DNA from: a virus
IMG/VR virus record: IMGVR_UViG_3300035665_000112
Location: 1-38,004 of that record
Direction: 5' to 3' (one strand)
DNA: 38,004 nucleotides
Made by a program: the position numbers and the translations under genes
Shown: positions 22,938 to 38,004 of the stretch, in pieces
Layout of the letters: every line of letters starts with the position of its first letter
Numbering within the stretch: position 1 is the stretch's first letter
The notes under the pieces: model-generated
Databases searched by the model: none
The model's input: the letters and a program-made list of their open reading frames with translations, nothing else
Told to the model about the DNA's origin: nothing

Positions 22938-22960
22938 TATATAGTAATCCATTTCATTAC
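22938..22960 (-). promoter_or_regulatory. Phage promoter motif P3 (GTAATG-N11-TATATA)
   Basis: GTAATG (22960-22955) and TATATA (22943-22938) on the minus strand, 11 nt apart, followed by GGGAAT. The portal stop codon TAA lies inside GTAATG. It drives scaffold and capsid, starting at 22890. Confidence 0.65.
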
Positions 22961-24843
22961 ATAGGTGGAGCTTGTTGCGCCTGAGCTAACAGAATCTGTA
23001 GCAATTCAGGTGGCAAGCTTTCCAATGCGCCCATCGGTGGCGCTCCTACTTCACCGCCTGGACCTTGGAGTGGTGCGCCTGGAATCAAGCCTGGTGGAAG
23101 TTGCGGTTCTTGTCCAAGAGCCATTTGGTCAGGGGTCATACCGGGTGGTAAGCCTTGTCCTTCAAGGACTTGCTGGTCTGGGCTCATACCCTCTGGCATT
23201 TCTGGGGCTTGTGGTTGGGTTAGGAACGCTGATGCATTCTTGATTCCAAATCCAGTTCCAAGTACGTATTCTGCAAGTTTTTGCATGTTGACAAGGCCAG
23301 CCTGAGCAAACGGTGCCATTGCTGAAACAACCTGCAAAGCCATGTCTCGACGGAAAGCTTCGTTTCGTGGAGCAGTTGAGCCAGCTTCTACGCTGTAGTC
23401 AAATTCTCCAGCAATGTAGTCACGGTCAAAGGTCAACCAAACTGGGGCTGCCTCTGTGCCAACGATACGAACCGTCTGTTCGCCAGTCAAGTACTGCTGG
23501 GCAAGCATGATGAGGTTTGCCGCGCATCGGGCGATGGCGTTTTCTATGTTGACAAGCTTTTCAGCAACACGAGCGTTTCCGGCTTCAGCAATGATTGATG
23601 CTTCACGGGCTGTTCTCGTGGTCTCGGGAATTGCTCCACGCTGGTACTCAGAGACACCTGACACACGGTCAATGTCGTTCTGAATCAAAGCTGACTGGTT
23701 GTAGAACTCTGGTGGGTTGATGAGTGCTGGCATTGGAACAACAACATTGTTCAGGTTCTCGGAGCCCTTAACAGGCACGATTACGTTGTCGTCATCTGAA
23801 GCAAGCATCTGGCGACCGAAGTCGTCAAAGGCAGACTCAAGGGCTAACCACTTGCGCGAGTAACGCTTTCTGTGATTCATCATCTGCGTACGGGTTTCGT
23901 TCAATTCGTACTGCAACGGCTCAATGGCTTCTAGTTCACCCATCGGGTAGAAAAAACCAGGAATGTCGTAGTTGCGCAACATGAAGAATGGATGACCAAA
24001 CACATATGGCATCTTGACTGGCTTGATAAGGAACTTGTCTCCAGAGTCAGAGAACACGGACATTTCGCCTGTGTCAATGTCGTAGTACTCAAAGATGTCT
24101 GCGTATGCATCTTCTTCACCATAAGAGTTCGTGGTGTAGAAGTTTGGAGTTGTATTGATGTCGCCATAACGTTGGTATGACGAAGGTCCTACATCTTTGC
24201 GAGCAGAGTAGTCATATCTTGGGTCGTTCTTAATGTCCTTGATTGGACGACGAGTTCTCTGAGCAATCCAGCGCGCATTATCCATTGATGTTGCATCCGG
24301 GTCAACAAACATGTCAAACGGGTCAACACGCTCCAAGAATGGGCGGTCTTCTCTAATGATGAATTCTGACTCAACATCGTCTGCTGGCTTGTTTGGGTCT
24401 GCAGCTTCGTCTGCGCTGTCTTGAATGTCTTTGGTCTTCTCTTCTTCAACAAAGCGATAACCAGTCTTTACCCAACCATGACCAAGAATCAAATAGTCCT
24501 TAACAGCAAGTTGGAACTGTGGCTGGCATTCGTAATGTTGCCACCAATAGTTAATAATTGATTCAGTAACAACAGCCTTGTCGCCATCTTCTGGTCTGCG
24601 TGGATTCACGTTAATTTTTGGACGACCAATAGCAACTGATGGTGCAAGAGTGTTAATCGTGGAGAAAGCAATGTTGACAAGTAGACGGTCGCCTACTGCT
24701 TGACCACGGTACTGACGACCACGGTAAAGGTTAATCATCCGTTGCCAGAGATTGTCGTAGTTTTCATTCTTACGCCAGTTACGTGCGTAATCAACACGCT
24801 TTCTGTAACTTGCGAGTCTGTCTGCATTTGATTGACGAGCCAT
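22957..24843 (-). CDS. Portal protein
   Basis: 628 residues. The start RQSNADRLASYRKRVDYARN, then NLYRGRQYRG, LLVNIAFSTINTLAPSVAIG, KDYLILGHGWVKTGY and YQRGAIPETTRTAREASII are typical of podovirus portal proteins that form the DNA entry/exit ring. The last 110 residues are Pro/Gly/Met-rich and low-complexity. Its position between the small basic genes and scaffold, and the typical length, support this. The stop overlaps promoter P3. Confidence 0.9.
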   Translation of the reverse strand: MARQSNADRLASYRKRVDYARNWRKNENYDNLWQRMINLYRGRQYRGQAVGDRLLVNIAFSTINTLAPSVAIGRPKINVNPRRPEDGDKAVVTESIINYWWQHYECQPQFQLAVKDYLILGHGWVKTGYRFVEEEKTKDIQDSADEAADPNKPADDVESEFIIREDRPFLERVDPFDMFVDPDATSMDNARWIAQRTRRPIKDIKNDPRYDYSARKDVGPSSYQRYGDINTTPNFYTTNSYGEEDAYADIFEYYDIDTGEMSVFSDSGDKFLIKPVKMPYVFGHPFFMLRNYDIPGFFYPMGELEAIEPLQYELNETRTQMMNHRKRYSRKWLALESAFDDFGRQMLASDDDNVIVPVKGSENLNNVVVPMPALINPPEFYNQSALIQNDIDRVSGVSEYQRGAIPETTRTAREASIIAEAGNARVAEKLVNIENAIARCAANLIMLAQQYLTGEQTVRIVGTEAAPVWLTFDRDYIAGEFDYSVEAGSTAPRNEAFRRDMALQVVSAMAPFAQAGLVNMQKLAEYVLGTGFGIKNASAFLTQPQAPEMPEGMSPDQQVLEGQGLPPGMTPDQMALGQEPQLPPGLIPGAPLQGPGGEVGAPPMGALESLPPELLQILLAQAQQAPPM

Positions 24844-26498: not shown

Positions 26499-28091
26499 CT
26501 AGTAGGAATTGAACTCCCCAATCATGTAGCGCTCTTTTTCCTTGGTCGGTTTCTTGAGCTTGGACGCAAAGTAGTTCAGGGTTCCAAACGGAGCGTCTGT
26601 CTTTGGGCGGTATTCAGCAAGCCAGACATACTTCAGCATCTGGTTGGCAATGGCCAGACTCATAACCCTGTCGTCATGGGGTGAGCCATGCATTGAGCCG
26701 TTGTCGTCCCGGACGAAGGTCTTAAGTTCAGCAATGGTGTATTCGCACATAATCTGCAACACCCCATCTCTAATATTGGCGCTGAGTTCGTCAATAGCTA
26801 ACGGCTTTGTCAGCGATGTGGTTCTCCAACCAAGCTGCTCCGTCTGCTCTGGATTTCTCTGGTTCAATCGGCGCTGGCGATACAGGTTGCTGTAGTTCGC
26901 GCGATTCAGGGCCGTCAGGGTAGTTAGACCGTGGTTGTTTGACTCAACACCAATCAGGGCTTCGTTGTAGAAGAAGCCAAGGGCATACAACACTTCTTCC
27001 CCAAACTTGTCTGGGTCAATGTGTCCGTGCCAGTGGGCAACCACAAGTCCAGACTTAGCGTCAATCACATGGGCTGTGGAATAGTCGCCACGAGCAAGTC
27101 CTTCTGCCACGTCAGCACCAATCGTATAGGTTGCTCCAAATTCAGGTAAACGCCAGATGGACAAAGGTCCACCAGAAGACTCAAACATGAAGGAATTCCT
27201 GACATCGGAAGACTTCTTGTTGAACCCTGTCTTTGGGCGTTCTGTCTCAAAGCGGTTTAGTGAATCAATGTCAAATACTGGGCGACCAGAACGGATAAAG
27301 GCTTCTTCTGGGTTTGATGGGTACTCTTGGTGTAGCTGCCATGGTGGAAGTTCAAGGGCTTGCGCGTCATACCAAGATTGGTCACGGTCTCCGTTTGCAG
27401 ACCATGGAAAGAAAATGCCATGGAATCGGTTGGTTCCTGTCTGTGACCCGTGCCACAGGGTGTAGAAGATGTTGCCTTCGCCCTTAGCCGTGGACAAACA
27501 GATAACACGACCACCAACGTCGGCAATAGGTTCAATAGATGCCCAAGCCTGTTCTGGGTTTGGAAGGAACGCCATCTCGTCAATGATGGCTAGGTATACG
27601 GATTCACCACGAGCAGGTTCGTTTGCTGACGGCAAAGACTCAATAACAGAGTCGTTATCAAACGCCATTTTAAGCACGTTGTTCTGGAGTAGCTCAGGAC
27701 CAGCTAATTGCATCCATCGTGGCATGAACTTATAGATGTACTTGGCTTTAGACAGAAGTTTGGCGGCTTCACGCTCGGTCTTGGAAAGCATGACGACAAA
27801 TCTGTCTGGCCAAAAGAATGCAAGCCAAAATGCAAAAGCAGCAGCGAGAGTAGAAAAGCCAATCTGACGTGCTTTGAGAACAATCGTGTTTCTGTGTCCT
27901 AGCCATGCTCGAACAGTTGCTATCTGCGCTGGTCGTAACTCAAATTCAATTCGTCCACGACTTGGATGCTTGATATAGACGTAGTTAGCACAGAAGAACT
28001 CAAATGCTTCTACAAGTTGTTCTACATCTGCTTCTTCTGGACCACGGCATTTTCTAAAGTTGTACTCGTTTACGAGGTCATTGAATTCCAT
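26499..28091 (-). CDS. terL: Terminase large subunit
   Basis: 530 residues. ATPase: a Walker A-like LKARQIGFST (72-81), Walker B VYLAIIDEMAF with D171-E172, and STAKGEG (200-206) as the coupling motif. Nuclease: D327 (IGADVAEG), E383 (GVESNNHG) and D473-D474 (PHDDRVMSLA), the expected acidic triad of the RNase H-like fold. The motor pumps DNA into the prohead and cuts concatemers. Full length. Unusually, it is separated from TerS by about 6 kb of fibre genes. Confidence 0.95.
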   Translation of the reverse strand: MEFNDLVNEYNFRKCRGPEEADVEQLVEAFEFFCANYVYIKHPSRGRIEFELRPAQIATVRAWLGHRNTIVLKARQIGFSTLAAAFAFWLAFFWPDRFVVMLSKTEREAAKLLSKAKYIYKFMPRWMQLAGPELLQNNVLKMAFDNDSVIESLPSANEPARGESVYLAIIDEMAFLPNPEQAWASIEPIADVGGRVICLSTAKGEGNIFYTLWHGSQTGTNRFHGIFFPWSANGDRDQSWYDAQALELPPWQLHQEYPSNPEEAFIRSGRPVFDIDSLNRFETERPKTGFNKKSSDVRNSFMFESSGGPLSIWRLPEFGATYTIGADVAEGLARGDYSTAHVIDAKSGLVVAHWHGHIDPDKFGEEVLYALGFFYNEALIGVESNNHGLTTLTALNRANYSNLYRQRRLNQRNPEQTEQLGWRTTSLTKPLAIDELSANIRDGVLQIMCEYTIAELKTFVRDDNGSMHGSPHDDRVMSLAIANQMLKYVWLAEYRPKTDAPFGTLNYFASKLKKPTKEKERYMIGEFNSY

Positions 28092-29382: not shown

Positions 29383-34179
<4,797 letters not shown>

Positions 34180-34533
34180 TTAGTAACCTCTTCCTGCGTT
34201 GCGGAAATCTCTGCGTGTCTTAAATACATATTGTGCAGTACCAAACGCTGTTGCTGCAGGAGTTAATGAACCAGCTGCACCTGTGTTTGCGTCAAATGCA
34301 CCAGCGGCTGTAGTAGATGCGCCCATTGCTGTCGTGTTAGGAACTAAAAGATAATGGAACTGGGTTGTTGAAGCATCGCCACCATTGATTAAGTCTTCTT
34401 GTTGGTGGTCGTTTAATAGAGCGTCGCTTTGTTCTTTGAGTGCGCGCTTAATCGTGTTGTTGATTTGCACTTGGAGCGCATTACTACGCCCTTGAAGTGT
34501 GTTTCCGCCTGGAGCGGACCATTGTGCTCGCAT
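34180..34533 (-). CDS. Hypothetical protein between TerS and the fibre
   Basis: 117 residues. The N-terminal half looks helical and polar (NALQVQINNTIKRALKEQSDAL). The C-terminal half is Ala/Thr/Gly-rich (TTAMGASTTAAGAFDANTGAAG), ending in the basic RRDFRNAGRGY. It starts in a TAATG overlap with TerS and stops directly before the fibre start. Role unknown; a TerS partner or fibre-base protein is possible. Confidence 0.62.
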   Translation of the reverse strand: MRAQWSAPGGNTLQGRSNALQVQINNTIKRALKEQSDALLNDHQQEDLINGGDASTTQFHYLLVPNTTAMGASTTAAGAFDANTGAAGSLTPAATAFGTAQYVFKTRRDFRNAGRGY

Positions 34534-34979
34534 TAATTTGCCTCGGTAATTGACATTGGAAAGACTGGGGCCTTCTTTACTTGCTTTGCACCAAGTTCCA
34601 GAATCATCTTTTCCAGTTCATCGTCTGATATATCACGGAGTGAAGTTTCGGTCTTGATATTCAACGTGGATGCATTAGGCATATTGCCAGTAGCTTTCAG
34701 GTAAAGCTCCGCCGACTTTGTGTCGCCAGAGATTCCCTTTATATAAAGCGCATCCAAGAGCTTCTGTGTCCGTTCTGGTGATTGATTGAGTCCTTCAACA
34801 CCCAACTTCCACCGTTCTATAAAGTTCTTTTTCTTTTCCCAACTACGCAGCGTGTTCTCGTGCATTTCCTTTGAATCTGCATAGGCACGCTTAGTTGCCG
34901 GTTCACGTTGGTCTTCAGGAGTGAGTAACCACGCCAAATAAGCTTCCTGCTCTTGTGTAAGCAATAAAGCTGCAGCCAT
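34533..34979 (-). CDS. terS: Terminase small subunit (HTH type)
   Basis: 148 residues. LTQEQEAYLAWLLTPEDQRE is followed by KRAYADSKEMHENTLRSWEKKKNF, a helix-turn-helix of the kind in small terminases that bind the packaging site. Then an oligomerisation-like helix (RTQKLLDALYIKG, AELYLKATGNMPN) and an acidic tail for TerL contact. It has GGAGGG as ribosome site and promoter P5 upstream. Head gene of the leftward structural block, with the HNH gene on its other side. Confidence 0.78.
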   Translation of the reverse strand: MAAALLLTQEQEAYLAWLLTPEDQREPATKRAYADSKEMHENTLRSWEKKKNFIERWKLGVEGLNQSPERTQKLLDALYIKGISGDTKSAELYLKATGNMPNASTLNIKTETSLRDISDDELEKMILELGAKQVKKAPVFPMSITEAN

Positions 34980-35071: not shown

Positions 35072-35218
35072 ATGAGCAAGCACGAAGAGTATATCAATAA
35101 CGGATTTCCACTAGATGCGTTTGAAGGCATCGAACGAGAACCATGGCCACCAAACTGGTCAGAAGAAGAAGAAGCACAATATTGGCACGACGAACAGGAG
35201 AAATACAATGAAAAGTAA
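35072..35218 (+). CDS. Small acidic protein before HNH
   Basis: 48 residues, strongly acidic (EEYINNGFPLDAFEGIEREP, WSEEEEAQYWHDEQEKYNEK) with several Trp. It overlaps the HNH gene by 11 nt, whose ribosome site lies within it. No family is recognised. The start at 35072 is preferred because a -10 lies just before it; 35060 and 35003 are less likely. Confidence 0.6.
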   Translation: MSKHEEYINNGFPLDAFEGIEREPWPPNWSEEEEAQYWHDEQEKYNEK

Positions 35219-35690
35219 ACGACCACTCAGACCAGTAGAAGAACGCTTCTGGGAAAAAGTAGATAAGACCGACGGATGCTGGGTGTGGAAAGCACACCTG
35301 TTGTACAACGGATATGGCCGATTCAGCATCAACCTGAAGACCCAGTACTCCCACCGCGTATCGTGGTTTCTTGAACACGGAGAGTGGCCAACGGGAAAAC
35401 ACGTCACACACACCTGTGACAACCCAGCTTGTGTCCGCCCAGACCATCTAGTTCTTGGAACTGTTGCAGACAACATGGCTGACAGAAACTCCAAGAAGCG
35501 TCAGTACAATCATAAGAAGCTCCATTGCCGGCATGGAATGCCGTTTTCTTATGAAGGCAAATATCGAATTGCCAAGGACTGCTCTGTTTGTGAGGTATCG
35601 CGCCAATACAAAAAGAATGTAGACCCAGCAAAAATCAAAGAAAACAACAAGAAGGCTTACCAAAAGCGTAAAAACCAAGGTAAGATTTAA
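35208..35690 (+). CDS. HNH endonuclease
   Basis: 160 residues. GCWVWKAHLLYNGYGRF and YSHRVSWFLEHGEWP with H49 open an HNH_3-type domain. THTCDNPACVRPDHLVLGT supplies H68, C70, C75 and the catalytic-type H80. A zinc tail C107...C125-x2-C128 follows, with a Lys-rich end. HNH proteins next to terminases take part in DNA packaging in several phages; a free-standing homing enzyme is the alternative. Ribosome site CAGGAG precedes the ATG. Confidence 0.88.
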   Translation: MKSKRPLRPVEERFWEKVDKTDGCWVWKAHLLYNGYGRFSINLKTQYSHRVSWFLEHGEWPTGKHVTHTCDNPACVRPDHLVLGTVADNMADRNSKKRQYNHKKLHCRHGMPFSYEGKYRIAKDCSVCEVSRQYKKNVDPAKIKENNKKAYQKRKNQGKI

Positions 35691-35705: not shown

Positions 35706-35912
35706 ATGACACGAATGAACTGGGAGCGCAGTCTTCCATCGAACCGGTACATCACATACACGCAGAAGAAACCAAAGCCTTTTATTGCGCCAACGCCTAA
35801 GCAGTTAGCATATATGAAGAAGCTTGGTATTCCATACACTGAAGGCATGAGCCGCAACGATTGCTCAAGCTTGATTACATATGCAAAAGAACAAGCAGAT
35901 AGTAAGCGGTGA
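35706..35912 (+). CDS. Small protein with T-x-KQ-x-YMKKLG motif
   Basis: 68 residues with a strong ribosome site (AAGGAGCACGAC). The C-terminal half PTPKQLAYMKKLGIPYTEGM and SRNDCSSLITYAKEQ resembles the small helical module found at the ends of phage recombination and helicase proteins, here standing alone. The stop lies in a 10-bp palindrome TGATATATCA. Function unknown. Confidence 0.68.
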   Translation: MTRMNWERSLPSNRYITYTQKKPKPFIAPTPKQLAYMKKLGIPYTEGMSRNDCSSLITYAKEQADSKR

Positions 35913-35946
35913 TATATCACAGGTATATCAAGTACTAGCGCCGCAT

Positions 35947-35968
35947 GTAATGAAACAAGCTGTACTAT
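35947..35968 (+). promoter_or_regulatory. Phage promoter motif P6 (GTAATG-N10-TACTAT)
   Basis: The only plus-strand member of the six-site family: GTAATG at 35947-35952 and TACTAT at 35963-35968, 10 nt apart, followed by AGAAC. It is 35 nt after the end of the preceding gene and directly before the candidate structured RNA. No ORF follows for 430 nt, so it probably drives a non-coding RNA. Confidence 0.6.
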
Positions 35969-35975
35969 AGAACAC

Positions 35976-36239
35976 AACTTCACTAAGCACGAAAGTGTCG
36001 CCCACCACGGCGTGAACAGTGGTGTCAGGTGGGAATCCTGCTCTATCGGGGAAACCCTGGTGCCGACAAAGTCGGGGTAGCCAGGAAATATAACCGAGGA
36101 TGTAGACCGTCAAACGGGGTCGCCTTGCCGCTTTTTTAAGAGAAGAAAATATTCAAGCCCTGTTGCGTAACCTAGCCAGGCGAGTTAGCTGACGACTTCC
36201 CCCAACTTTTTAAGTTGATGTTCAGCGGGGGGGTTTTTT
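35976..36239 (+). ncRNA. Candidate structured non-coding RNA, ends at a terminator
   Basis: About 260 nt between promoter P6 and a hairpin with T6, without a credible ORF on either strand. Visible pairings: CAC-GAAA-GTG (35988-35997); CACCAC/GTGGTG (36003-36008 with 36019-36024); ATCCT...CGG with CCGAGGAT (36035-36049 with 36094-36101), enclosing CCTGG/CCAGG (36056-36060 with 36081-36085) and CCGAC-AAA-GTCGG (36063-36075); and CCGT-CAA-ACGG (36107-36117). A T6 run at 36132-36137 may be an earlier end. It does not match tRNA, tmRNA, RNase P, SRP or common riboswitches that I know. The exact 5' end is inferred from the -10. Confidence 0.55.
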
Positions 36240-36246
36240 CTTCTCT
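36139..36246 (+). promoter_or_regulatory. Closed RNA element with 11-bp outer stem
   Basis: AGAGAAGAAAA (36139-36149) is perfectly complementary to TTTTCTTCTCT (36236-36246), enclosing about 86 nt that contain the bulged terminator at 36199-36239. Inner pairing CTAGC with GTTAG (G-U allowed) is also possible. Formation of the outer stem uses the terminator's U-run, so the two could compete. This would be a natural attenuation switch for the genes beyond. Confidence 0.45.
36199..36239 (+). terminator. Rho-independent terminator with bulge and possible pseudoknot
   Basis: CCCCC-AACTT (36199-36208) pairs with AAGTT (36212-36216) and GGGGG (36227-36231), leaving a 10-nt bulge GATGTTCAGC, then T6. 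The bulge's TCAGC (36222-36226) is complementary to GCTGA upstream (36188-36192), which would form a pseudoknot. Works on the plus strand only. Confidence 0.75.
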
Positions 36247-36398
36247 CTCTTGGCAACTTCTCTCTGGTTCTTTTTAAGAGGACAATAAAAACACGTGCTG
36301 TGCGAGCGAAGCGAAGCTAAAGCACTAGGCGAGGAGGAGGCGAAGCCGACGGGCCGCCACTAGGCCGCGTTAGTAGCTAGAGCGTATATACTGCACAT
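36240..36398 (+). other. Intergenic leader before the small ORFs
   Basis: Contains a repeated CTTCTCTCT, a hairpin GTGCT...AGC...GCT..AGCAC (36295-36325), GC-richer GAAG/GCGAAGC repeats, and TATACT (36387-36392) ending 6 nt before the ATG at 36399, suggesting a leaderless start. No -35 is evident. Confidence 0.45.
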
Positions 36399-36690: not shown

Positions 36691-36740
36691 AAGTAACCAC
36701 GGCTCCCTACCCTTTATATATATACAAATTGACGGTACCC

Positions 36741-36767
36741 GGGGGGGTGGGGGTGGGGTGGCTGGGG
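36741..36767 (+). other. Potential G-quadruplex (G-rich on plus strand)
   Basis: G-runs of 7, 5, 4 and 4 (36741-36747, 36749-36753, 36755-36758, 36764-36767) with loops of 1, 1 and 5 nt, a strong canonical motif. Opposite in strand to the left copy at 402-429. Confidence 0.65.
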
Positions 36768-36788
36768 TCAGGTGTACTGCATACCTAG

Positions 36789-37721: not shown

Positions 37722-38004
37722 ATGAAGATTCCATTTAGTTATTTCAATACCGATATAGACAACCATGATGAACGAATAGAAACAAACATAGAGTTCGTGA
37801 ACACCGTAATGAACGGAGACTTTACAGGCATTCGTTTAGAAACAGCAGGGTTAACCGAACAAGAACTGTATGCACTAGACATATTAAAGATATTGGTACG
37901 ATGCGTGCCTGCCGAACGAATTGCAGTGTTTATGCATAGTTGGGAGTTTGGTCATCACTGTGGTTGCGAGTTGGACAAAGTTTGTTTAGTTCATTTTTGC
38001 CGTG
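37722..38004 (+). CDS. Partial paralogue of the protein at 1163 (3' end off window)
   Basis: 94 codons visible. MKIPFSYFNTDIDNHDERIE corresponds to residues 14 onward of the protein at 1163, so this version starts 12 residues later and has a different leader. From about the middle of the visible part the DNA is identical to the first copy. Most of the eight differences are near the start (five change the residue). It could be a recent tandem duplicate or one end of a redundant terminal sequence. Confidence 0.75.
   Translation, partial: MKIPFSYFNTDIDNHDERIETNIEFVNTVMNGDFTGIRLETAGLTEQELYALDILKILVRCVPAERIAVFMHSWEFGHHCGCELDKVCLVHFCR
37728..38004 (+). repeat. Long direct repeat, right copy
   Basis: Partner of 1205-1481 (offset 36523 bp), 8 mismatches in 277 bp, running to the last base of the window. 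Confidence 0.9.

Follow-up and report, generated by a model that had tools for sequence, protein, structure and literature searches.

A covarying, pseudoknotted RNA next to the TerS-like gene points to a new structured RNA family in uncultured phages

Small-genome phages rarely retain hundreds of noncoding bases. What, then, is the function of such a stretch in the IMG/VR virus record analysed here, whose entire length of 38,004 nt (38 kb) is referred to as the window? On the plus strand, the region between 35970 and 36370 holds no ORF of at least 60 aa, and the sole frame crossing domain A (described below) is a minus-strand one of 61 aa that starts with TTG, so that the earlier note on this DNA was right in seeing no ORF in the region. 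That note had also proposed an undescribed structured RNA driven by a phage promoter, a proposal upheld here by covariation, by the lack of an Rfam match and by a promoter motif common to the structural operons.

The candidate promoter, the late-type ATGTAATGAAACAAGCTGTACTATAG at 35945-35970 on the plus strand, would drive the RNA, and its motif is repeated at other sites. A regular expression for the motif returned five sites in the window, four of them forming a coherent set: 35945(+), 35034(-) just before the TerS-like gene, 26495(-) and 22962(-). The last three are all on the structural-gene strand, most relatives have a similar motif ahead of terS, and no sigma-70-type promoter was found at the RNA promoter site. 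The late-type promoter claimed previously is thus confirmed by a motif common to the TerS-like and structural-gene sites, the word "late" being used because of the genes that these promoters serve. The RNA would accordingly be transcribed late in the phage cycle, a timing taken from the promoter motif alone.

The minus strand encodes TerL (26499-28091), a P22/SU10-like portal (22957-24843) and, at 34533-34979, a 148-aa HTH protein called TerS-like because of a weak HTH match and the place of its gene, the conserved neighbour of the RNA; the terminase of this phage is of the conventional two-subunit TerS/TerL type. A 1598-aa minus-strand protein with an Mtd_N domain and collagen repeats (29383-34179) is likely the receptor-binding fibre. 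Two plus-strand genes precede the RNA, one for an HNH endonuclease (HNH_3, 35211-35690), which is a neighbour and not a part of the RNA, and one for a 68-aa protein of unassigned function (35706-35912), a relative of which precedes the RNA in L045. The palindrome TGATATATCA, operator-like, is found at 35910-35919 and at 34626; many relatives carry it as well between TerS and the early region, often followed by ATATCA, and it stands upstream of the RNA or of the early promoter.

For comparison, loci were collected by their TerS-like protein and TerL. RNA homologues found by nhmmer (L003, L005, L029, L031, L044, L045, L069, L070, L156, L200 and L205) sit upstream of terS on the strand opposite to it, and in roughly twelve divergent IMG/VR phages the RNA keeps both its strand and its place beside this TerS-like gene, with more distant forms elsewhere. 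Each domain was given its own covariance model (R1, domain B; R2, domain A), and the window was left out when R2 was made. R2 recovered the held-out window at 3.7e-11, matched L205 at 1.7e-5 and identified a second class at 2.8e-7 to 8e-10 (L018, L019, L021, L039, L041, L101, L106, L115 and L223), class 2 being located by exact pattern in 17 contigs; a third class was borderline (L048, L092, L090 and L213, 0.007). R1 recovered the held-out L005 (2.6e-5) and L011 (0.006). Other structured-looking noncoding stretches occupy the same slot in L092, L048, L213 and L224 (class 3, matching domain A weakly at E 0.007-0.03) and in L020 and L023 (class 4). A degenerate domain B pattern run on viral contigs gave, besides true members, 16 loci judged by eye to be chance. 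Bacterial genomes searched with TerL and with the domain B pattern yielded no match, nor did BLAST of the RNA region and L156 against GenBank phages, or of L156 against plasmids. The closest GenBank phage TerL match reaches only 52%, so that there is no near GenBank phage, and the RNA was not found in MW202803.1, the nearest GenBank relative by TerL.

Does this stretch fold? Folded as a single sequence, it scores no better than its shuffles do (z +0.56 and -0.50), and folding of this kind was rejected as evidence. Since the folding energy is at shuffle level, the structure is unprovable from one sequence, and the proof is supplied by covariation, which in the homologue alignment is strong and exceeds what shuffling, slid controls and a tree-based null give; in this null, the changes of each branch were placed again at random columns in 500 runs. 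The nested stems described earlier are therefore borne out by comparison, without support from folding energy.

Domain A was aligned over 16 distinct sequences, fitted to the model and leaning towards it; in this alignment 88.8% is paired and 23 of 28 pairs have two-sided changes, counts not reached in 500 shuffles of the same model-fitted alignment. A structure-free alignment of five sequences gave 86.2% paired and seven two-sided pairs, with 24 of 500 shuffles reaching the pair count, and in it the helix PA3b has two-sided changes at 4/7 pairs. Under the tree-based null, 500 runs never reached the observed values, either for domain A or for domain B. The domain begins with hairpin PA1 (36003-36024, CACCAC/GTGGTG, loop GGCGTGAACA), which has two-sided changes at its pairs and aligns poorly in L029; a pairing of its loop with the CCGC at the 3' side of the domain was dropped as inconsistent in L029. 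Hairpin PA2 (36026-36040, CAGG/CCTG) carries the 7-nt loop TGGGAAT. T-loop motifs are 7-nt loops of the form U-(U/G)-N-R-A-N-N with docking purines, and the T-loop-like pattern U-G-N-R-A-N-N is kept, by eye, in eight of nine compared loops, L005 being the one that differs. The long hairpin PA3 (36046-36097) consists of 36046-36049/36094-36097, an internal loop, PA3b (36056-36060/36081-36085; 98% paired, two-sided changes at 6/7 pairs) and the supported helix PA3c (36063-36067/36071-36075), and it is followed by PA4 (36105-36121, GACC/GGTC), whose loop sequence is conserved. The two-part hairpin reported before thus stands as PA3, PA3b and PA3c, while the eight-pair helix said to close it was not confirmed; we take it for the long outer portion of the helix given by energy minimisation, a portion that competes with the conserved T-loop-like hairpin at 36026-36040.

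Domain B is 97.7% paired by cells, with nine pairs changed on both sides; neither value was reached in 500 shuffles of the 3' letters (means 86.6% and 3.3), and slid versions gave two two-sided pairs at most. Its hairpin PB1 (36159-36180), CCTG/CAGG in the window, reads CCAG/CTGG or CCCG/CGGG in relatives, and PB2 (36183-36197), AGTT/GACT with the 7-nt loop AGCTGAC, reads AGTG/CACT. Stem PB3 (36199-36233, CCCCC/GGGGG) encloses hairpin PB4 (CAACT/AGTTG), with two-sided changes at 4/5 pairs. The PB2 loop GCTGA (36188-36192) pairs with TCAGC (36222-36226) in a covarying pseudoknot: this helix is GCCGA/TCGGC in most sequences and GTCCA/TGGAC in L156, with two-sided changes at three of five pairs, and taken alone its pairing and two-sided changes were both matched in 0/500 tree-based simulations. 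By this comparison, the element is a structured RNA whose fold, pseudoknot included, is kept across distant relatives despite changes in the letters. L044 and L128 keep domain B and have a different, unrelated-looking 5' part; because of this combination in L044, RNA domains may be exchanged as modules.

Where does the RNA end? The earlier note placed its limit at 36239 and named a terminator, and neither is borne out. The supposed terminator is the pseudoknotted stem CCCCC..GGGGGGG at 36199-36233, that is, PB3; an intrinsic terminator was rejected because several homologues (L029, L069, L070 and L044) keep this stem without a U run. In the window, the TTTTTTCTTCTC that follows PB3 could pair with 36139-36149 and so provide the 3' side of a helix, and termination at TTTTTTCTTCTC may occur in the window alone. 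The element reaches at least 36275 and probably about 36370. Domain C (36292-36328), a hairpin CGTGCT..AGCAC followed by CTAG, has a stem that varies in matching fashion in nine sequences compared by eye and presumably belongs to the RNA; the stem of hairpin D (36351-36367, GGCC-GCCACTA-GGCC), possibly the 3' end, also recurs with matching variation by eye. Single-sequence folds of both hairpins are unremarkable. In L045, the end of hairpin D adjoins the stop of a convergent WhiB gene, and from this and the recurrence of the two hairpins the 3' end is placed, with low certainty, near 36370. The proposed RNA gene would thus span 35970-36370 on the plus strand, delimited by homologue comparison, with the 5' end taken from the promoter and the 3' end uncertain between 36275 and 36370. 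L069, L018 and L092 have AGAAGACTGT in common directly after the last hairpin.

Domains A and B are joined by a polypurine linker R, AGAGAAGAAAA (36139-36149, plus strand), and a polypyrimidine mirror repeat lies at 36234-36275 (Y1 36234-36253, a loop, Y2 36257-36275), its Y1 segment 36236-36246 being the exact complement of R. Y1 has an exact complement of R of 8-12 bases in 10 of 11 sequences, and the summed length is 101, while shuffles average 63 and reach at most 77; in L031, which has no purine tract, TTGAACACAA can pair with TTGTGGTCAA instead (9/10, by eye). Y2 mirrors Y1 (sum 129; mean 59.5, maximum 78), and the two tracts also show high similarity when read in the same direction (103). 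In a Y.R:Y triple helix of the pyrimidine motif, Y2 needs the partner bases of R in parallel order. With segments R, Y1 and Y2 picked by eye, this third-strand order is found for the full purine segment in 10/11 sequences (chance mean 0.1), against 4/11 for the antiparallel order; the window's own Y2 is interrupted and matches third-strand order at 7/11. The sequences are thus compatible with an RNA triple helix of R, Y1 and Y2, which we put forward as a hypothesis. RNA triple-helix elements of the MALAT1/PAN type and in telomerase RNA offer a likeness, as two pyrimidine arms could sandwich a purine strand by a stem or pseudoknot, whereas here the setting is a bacterial phage, the triplex is putative and the arms hold C besides U, so that C+ triples are needed. 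If true, this would be an unusual occurrence of such an element in a bacterial virus. A broader proposal, a late phage RNA class whose 3' pseudoknot is locked by a U.A:U / C+.G:C triplex, which acts in actinobacterial phages as the scaffold for an RNA-protein particle and whose RNAs are swapped at the slot, appears rather unlikely. Mirror-symmetric GGGGGGCGAGCGAAGCGAGCGGGG repeats are also seen 3' of the RNA in L045 and L031.

Is this a known RNA? At the gathering score, none of the 4227 covariance models of Rfam 15 matched the window, nor L045, L029 or L070; L020, L018, L011, L048, L031 and L044 gave only a sub-threshold match elsewhere (E 0.14). The earlier statement that no known family fits is thereby sustained for the window and its relatives, and ideas of a group I intron, riboswitch or ribozyme were dropped. 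ARAGORN found no tRNA or tmRNA in the window or in 13 relatives, and literature searches returned no description of the RNA.

A role in packaging, with the RNA working with TerS/TerL or the portal, is suggested by its place beside the TerS-like gene under the same late promoter type, and by its presence as class 1 in 13/13 rows of one group in a TerS tree of 45 rows. The phi29-type pRNA, a phage-encoded structured RNA near packaging genes, is needed by the phi29-type packaging ATPase, and the likeness lies in these two traits; here, however, the terminase is an ordinary TerS/TerL, the fold is another, Rfam gives no match and the RNA is patchy in one clade. In the other large TerS group, candidates of classes 2, 3 and 4 are mixed with loci without a match (the labels of L158 and of classes 3 and 4 rest partly on reading by eye and weak matches), and TerS genes that are almost the same are found both with the RNA and without it (L021 with, L017 without; L039 with, L038 without), presence being called from fragments and absence meaning no match to two models in the available fragment, which is weak evidence. 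The RNA is therefore not indispensable in this second clade, the packaging role is weakened and we hold it to be unlikely. Of the neighbours named by the earlier note, the terminase side stands, the TerS-like gene being conserved, and the HNH link is incidental: an HNH gene is near the RNA in two lineages, and in L029, L031 and L070 the RNA lies so close to the TerS-like gene that there is no room for it.

The genes on the other side bear on a cis-acting leader, riboswitch or antitermination element. The window and L005 have a small same-strand ORF within a few hundred nt, and the T-loop-like loop and pseudoknot are reminiscent of riboswitches, yet the distance to the following gene is not fixed and not every member has the RNA in the 5' UTR of a gene on its own strand. 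In L045, L031 and L200 the next gene is a convergent WhiB, which excludes a leader for that gene and contradicts the regulator of the next genes suggested before; as a general explanation, a leader is decidedly improbable. The WhiB genes of relatives (PF02467, E 1.8e-16 in L045) indicate that the hosts, including that of this phage, are probably actinobacteria.

A replication element, either a ColE1 RNAII-like primer or a DNA element such as H-DNA that forms a triplex where replication or packaging starts, is favoured by the conserved mirror-repeat polypyrimidine tract; the early genes begin next, and a G-rich noncoding tract, CCCGGGGGGGTGGGGGTGGGGTGGCTGGGG, lies about 370 nt downstream of the RNA (36735-36775), itself a possible origin or packaging element. 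Similar tracts occur in L156, L209 and L221. RNA-based replication origins have been proposed in cluster A mycobacteriophages (PMC7157519). Those share with our RNA a noncoding nature, a length of several hundred nt and actinobacterial phages as carriers, but the late promoter found here would be odd for a primer, the origin regions of RedRock and Alma gave no credible model match (best E 0.12) and the gene after the RNA is convergent in the three relatives named above. Compensatory changes, moreover, indicate selection on RNA pairing. We thus regard a replication element as quite unlikely. Concerning the ends of the record, the last 282 bases (37723-38004) repeat 1200-1481 with 96.8% identity, which looks like the assembly of a circularly permuted genome, some 36.5 kb long, whose ends were joined through the sequence of a strain variant; in record L006 (36.7 kb) the RNA and TerS likewise stand at opposite ends.

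Base-pairing with phage or host mRNAs as an antisense regulator would fit a gene that stands alone and the conserved loop sequences of PA1 and PA4, but conservation is strongest in an elaborate fold and not in an exposed guide stretch, and this reading is very improbable. The explanation that we favour, and consider moderately probable, is a stand-alone structured RNA of about 300-400 nt that is made late and acts in trans within an RNA-protein particle. Sequence comparison shows the conserved structure, the shared promoter, the location and, in three relatives, the convergent downstream gene; transcription and its timing, the exact ends, the trans action and the protein binding we add by inference. 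The RNA would be made late, from a promoter also used by structural operons, and would fold into domain A, in which a long hairpin with a conserved internal loop accompanies the other hairpins (one T-loop-like), and domain B, where the polypurine/polypyrimidine helix closes two hairpins and a loop-stem pseudoknot. This compact fold would be a scaffold for at least one protein, of the host or of the phage, and the particle would act in the late phase, for example, as a guess, by occupying the host gene-expression machinery. 6S RNA and the actinobacterial Ms1-type RNAs bind RNA polymerase and are a possible analogy only, as stand-alone structured RNAs working via protein binding; they form one long hairpin, whereas the present fold is multi-domain with a pseudoknot and has no Rfam match. 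The ornate GOLLD and ROOL RNAs are large bacterial and phage RNAs with a complex tertiary fold (PMC12286853), in contrast to the roughly 300-400 nt, other architecture and lack of an Rfam match seen here.

In essence, the comparison supports a structured RNA family that is new, belongs to uncultured phages and is well founded as a structure. Structured phage RNAs as such are already known, and the novelty would lie in the family; its pair tables supply point and compensatory mutants for direct tests of the structure. The strong covariation, the late promoter common to other genes and the fixed position within a clade point to an uncatalogued job for RNA in the late phage cycle.
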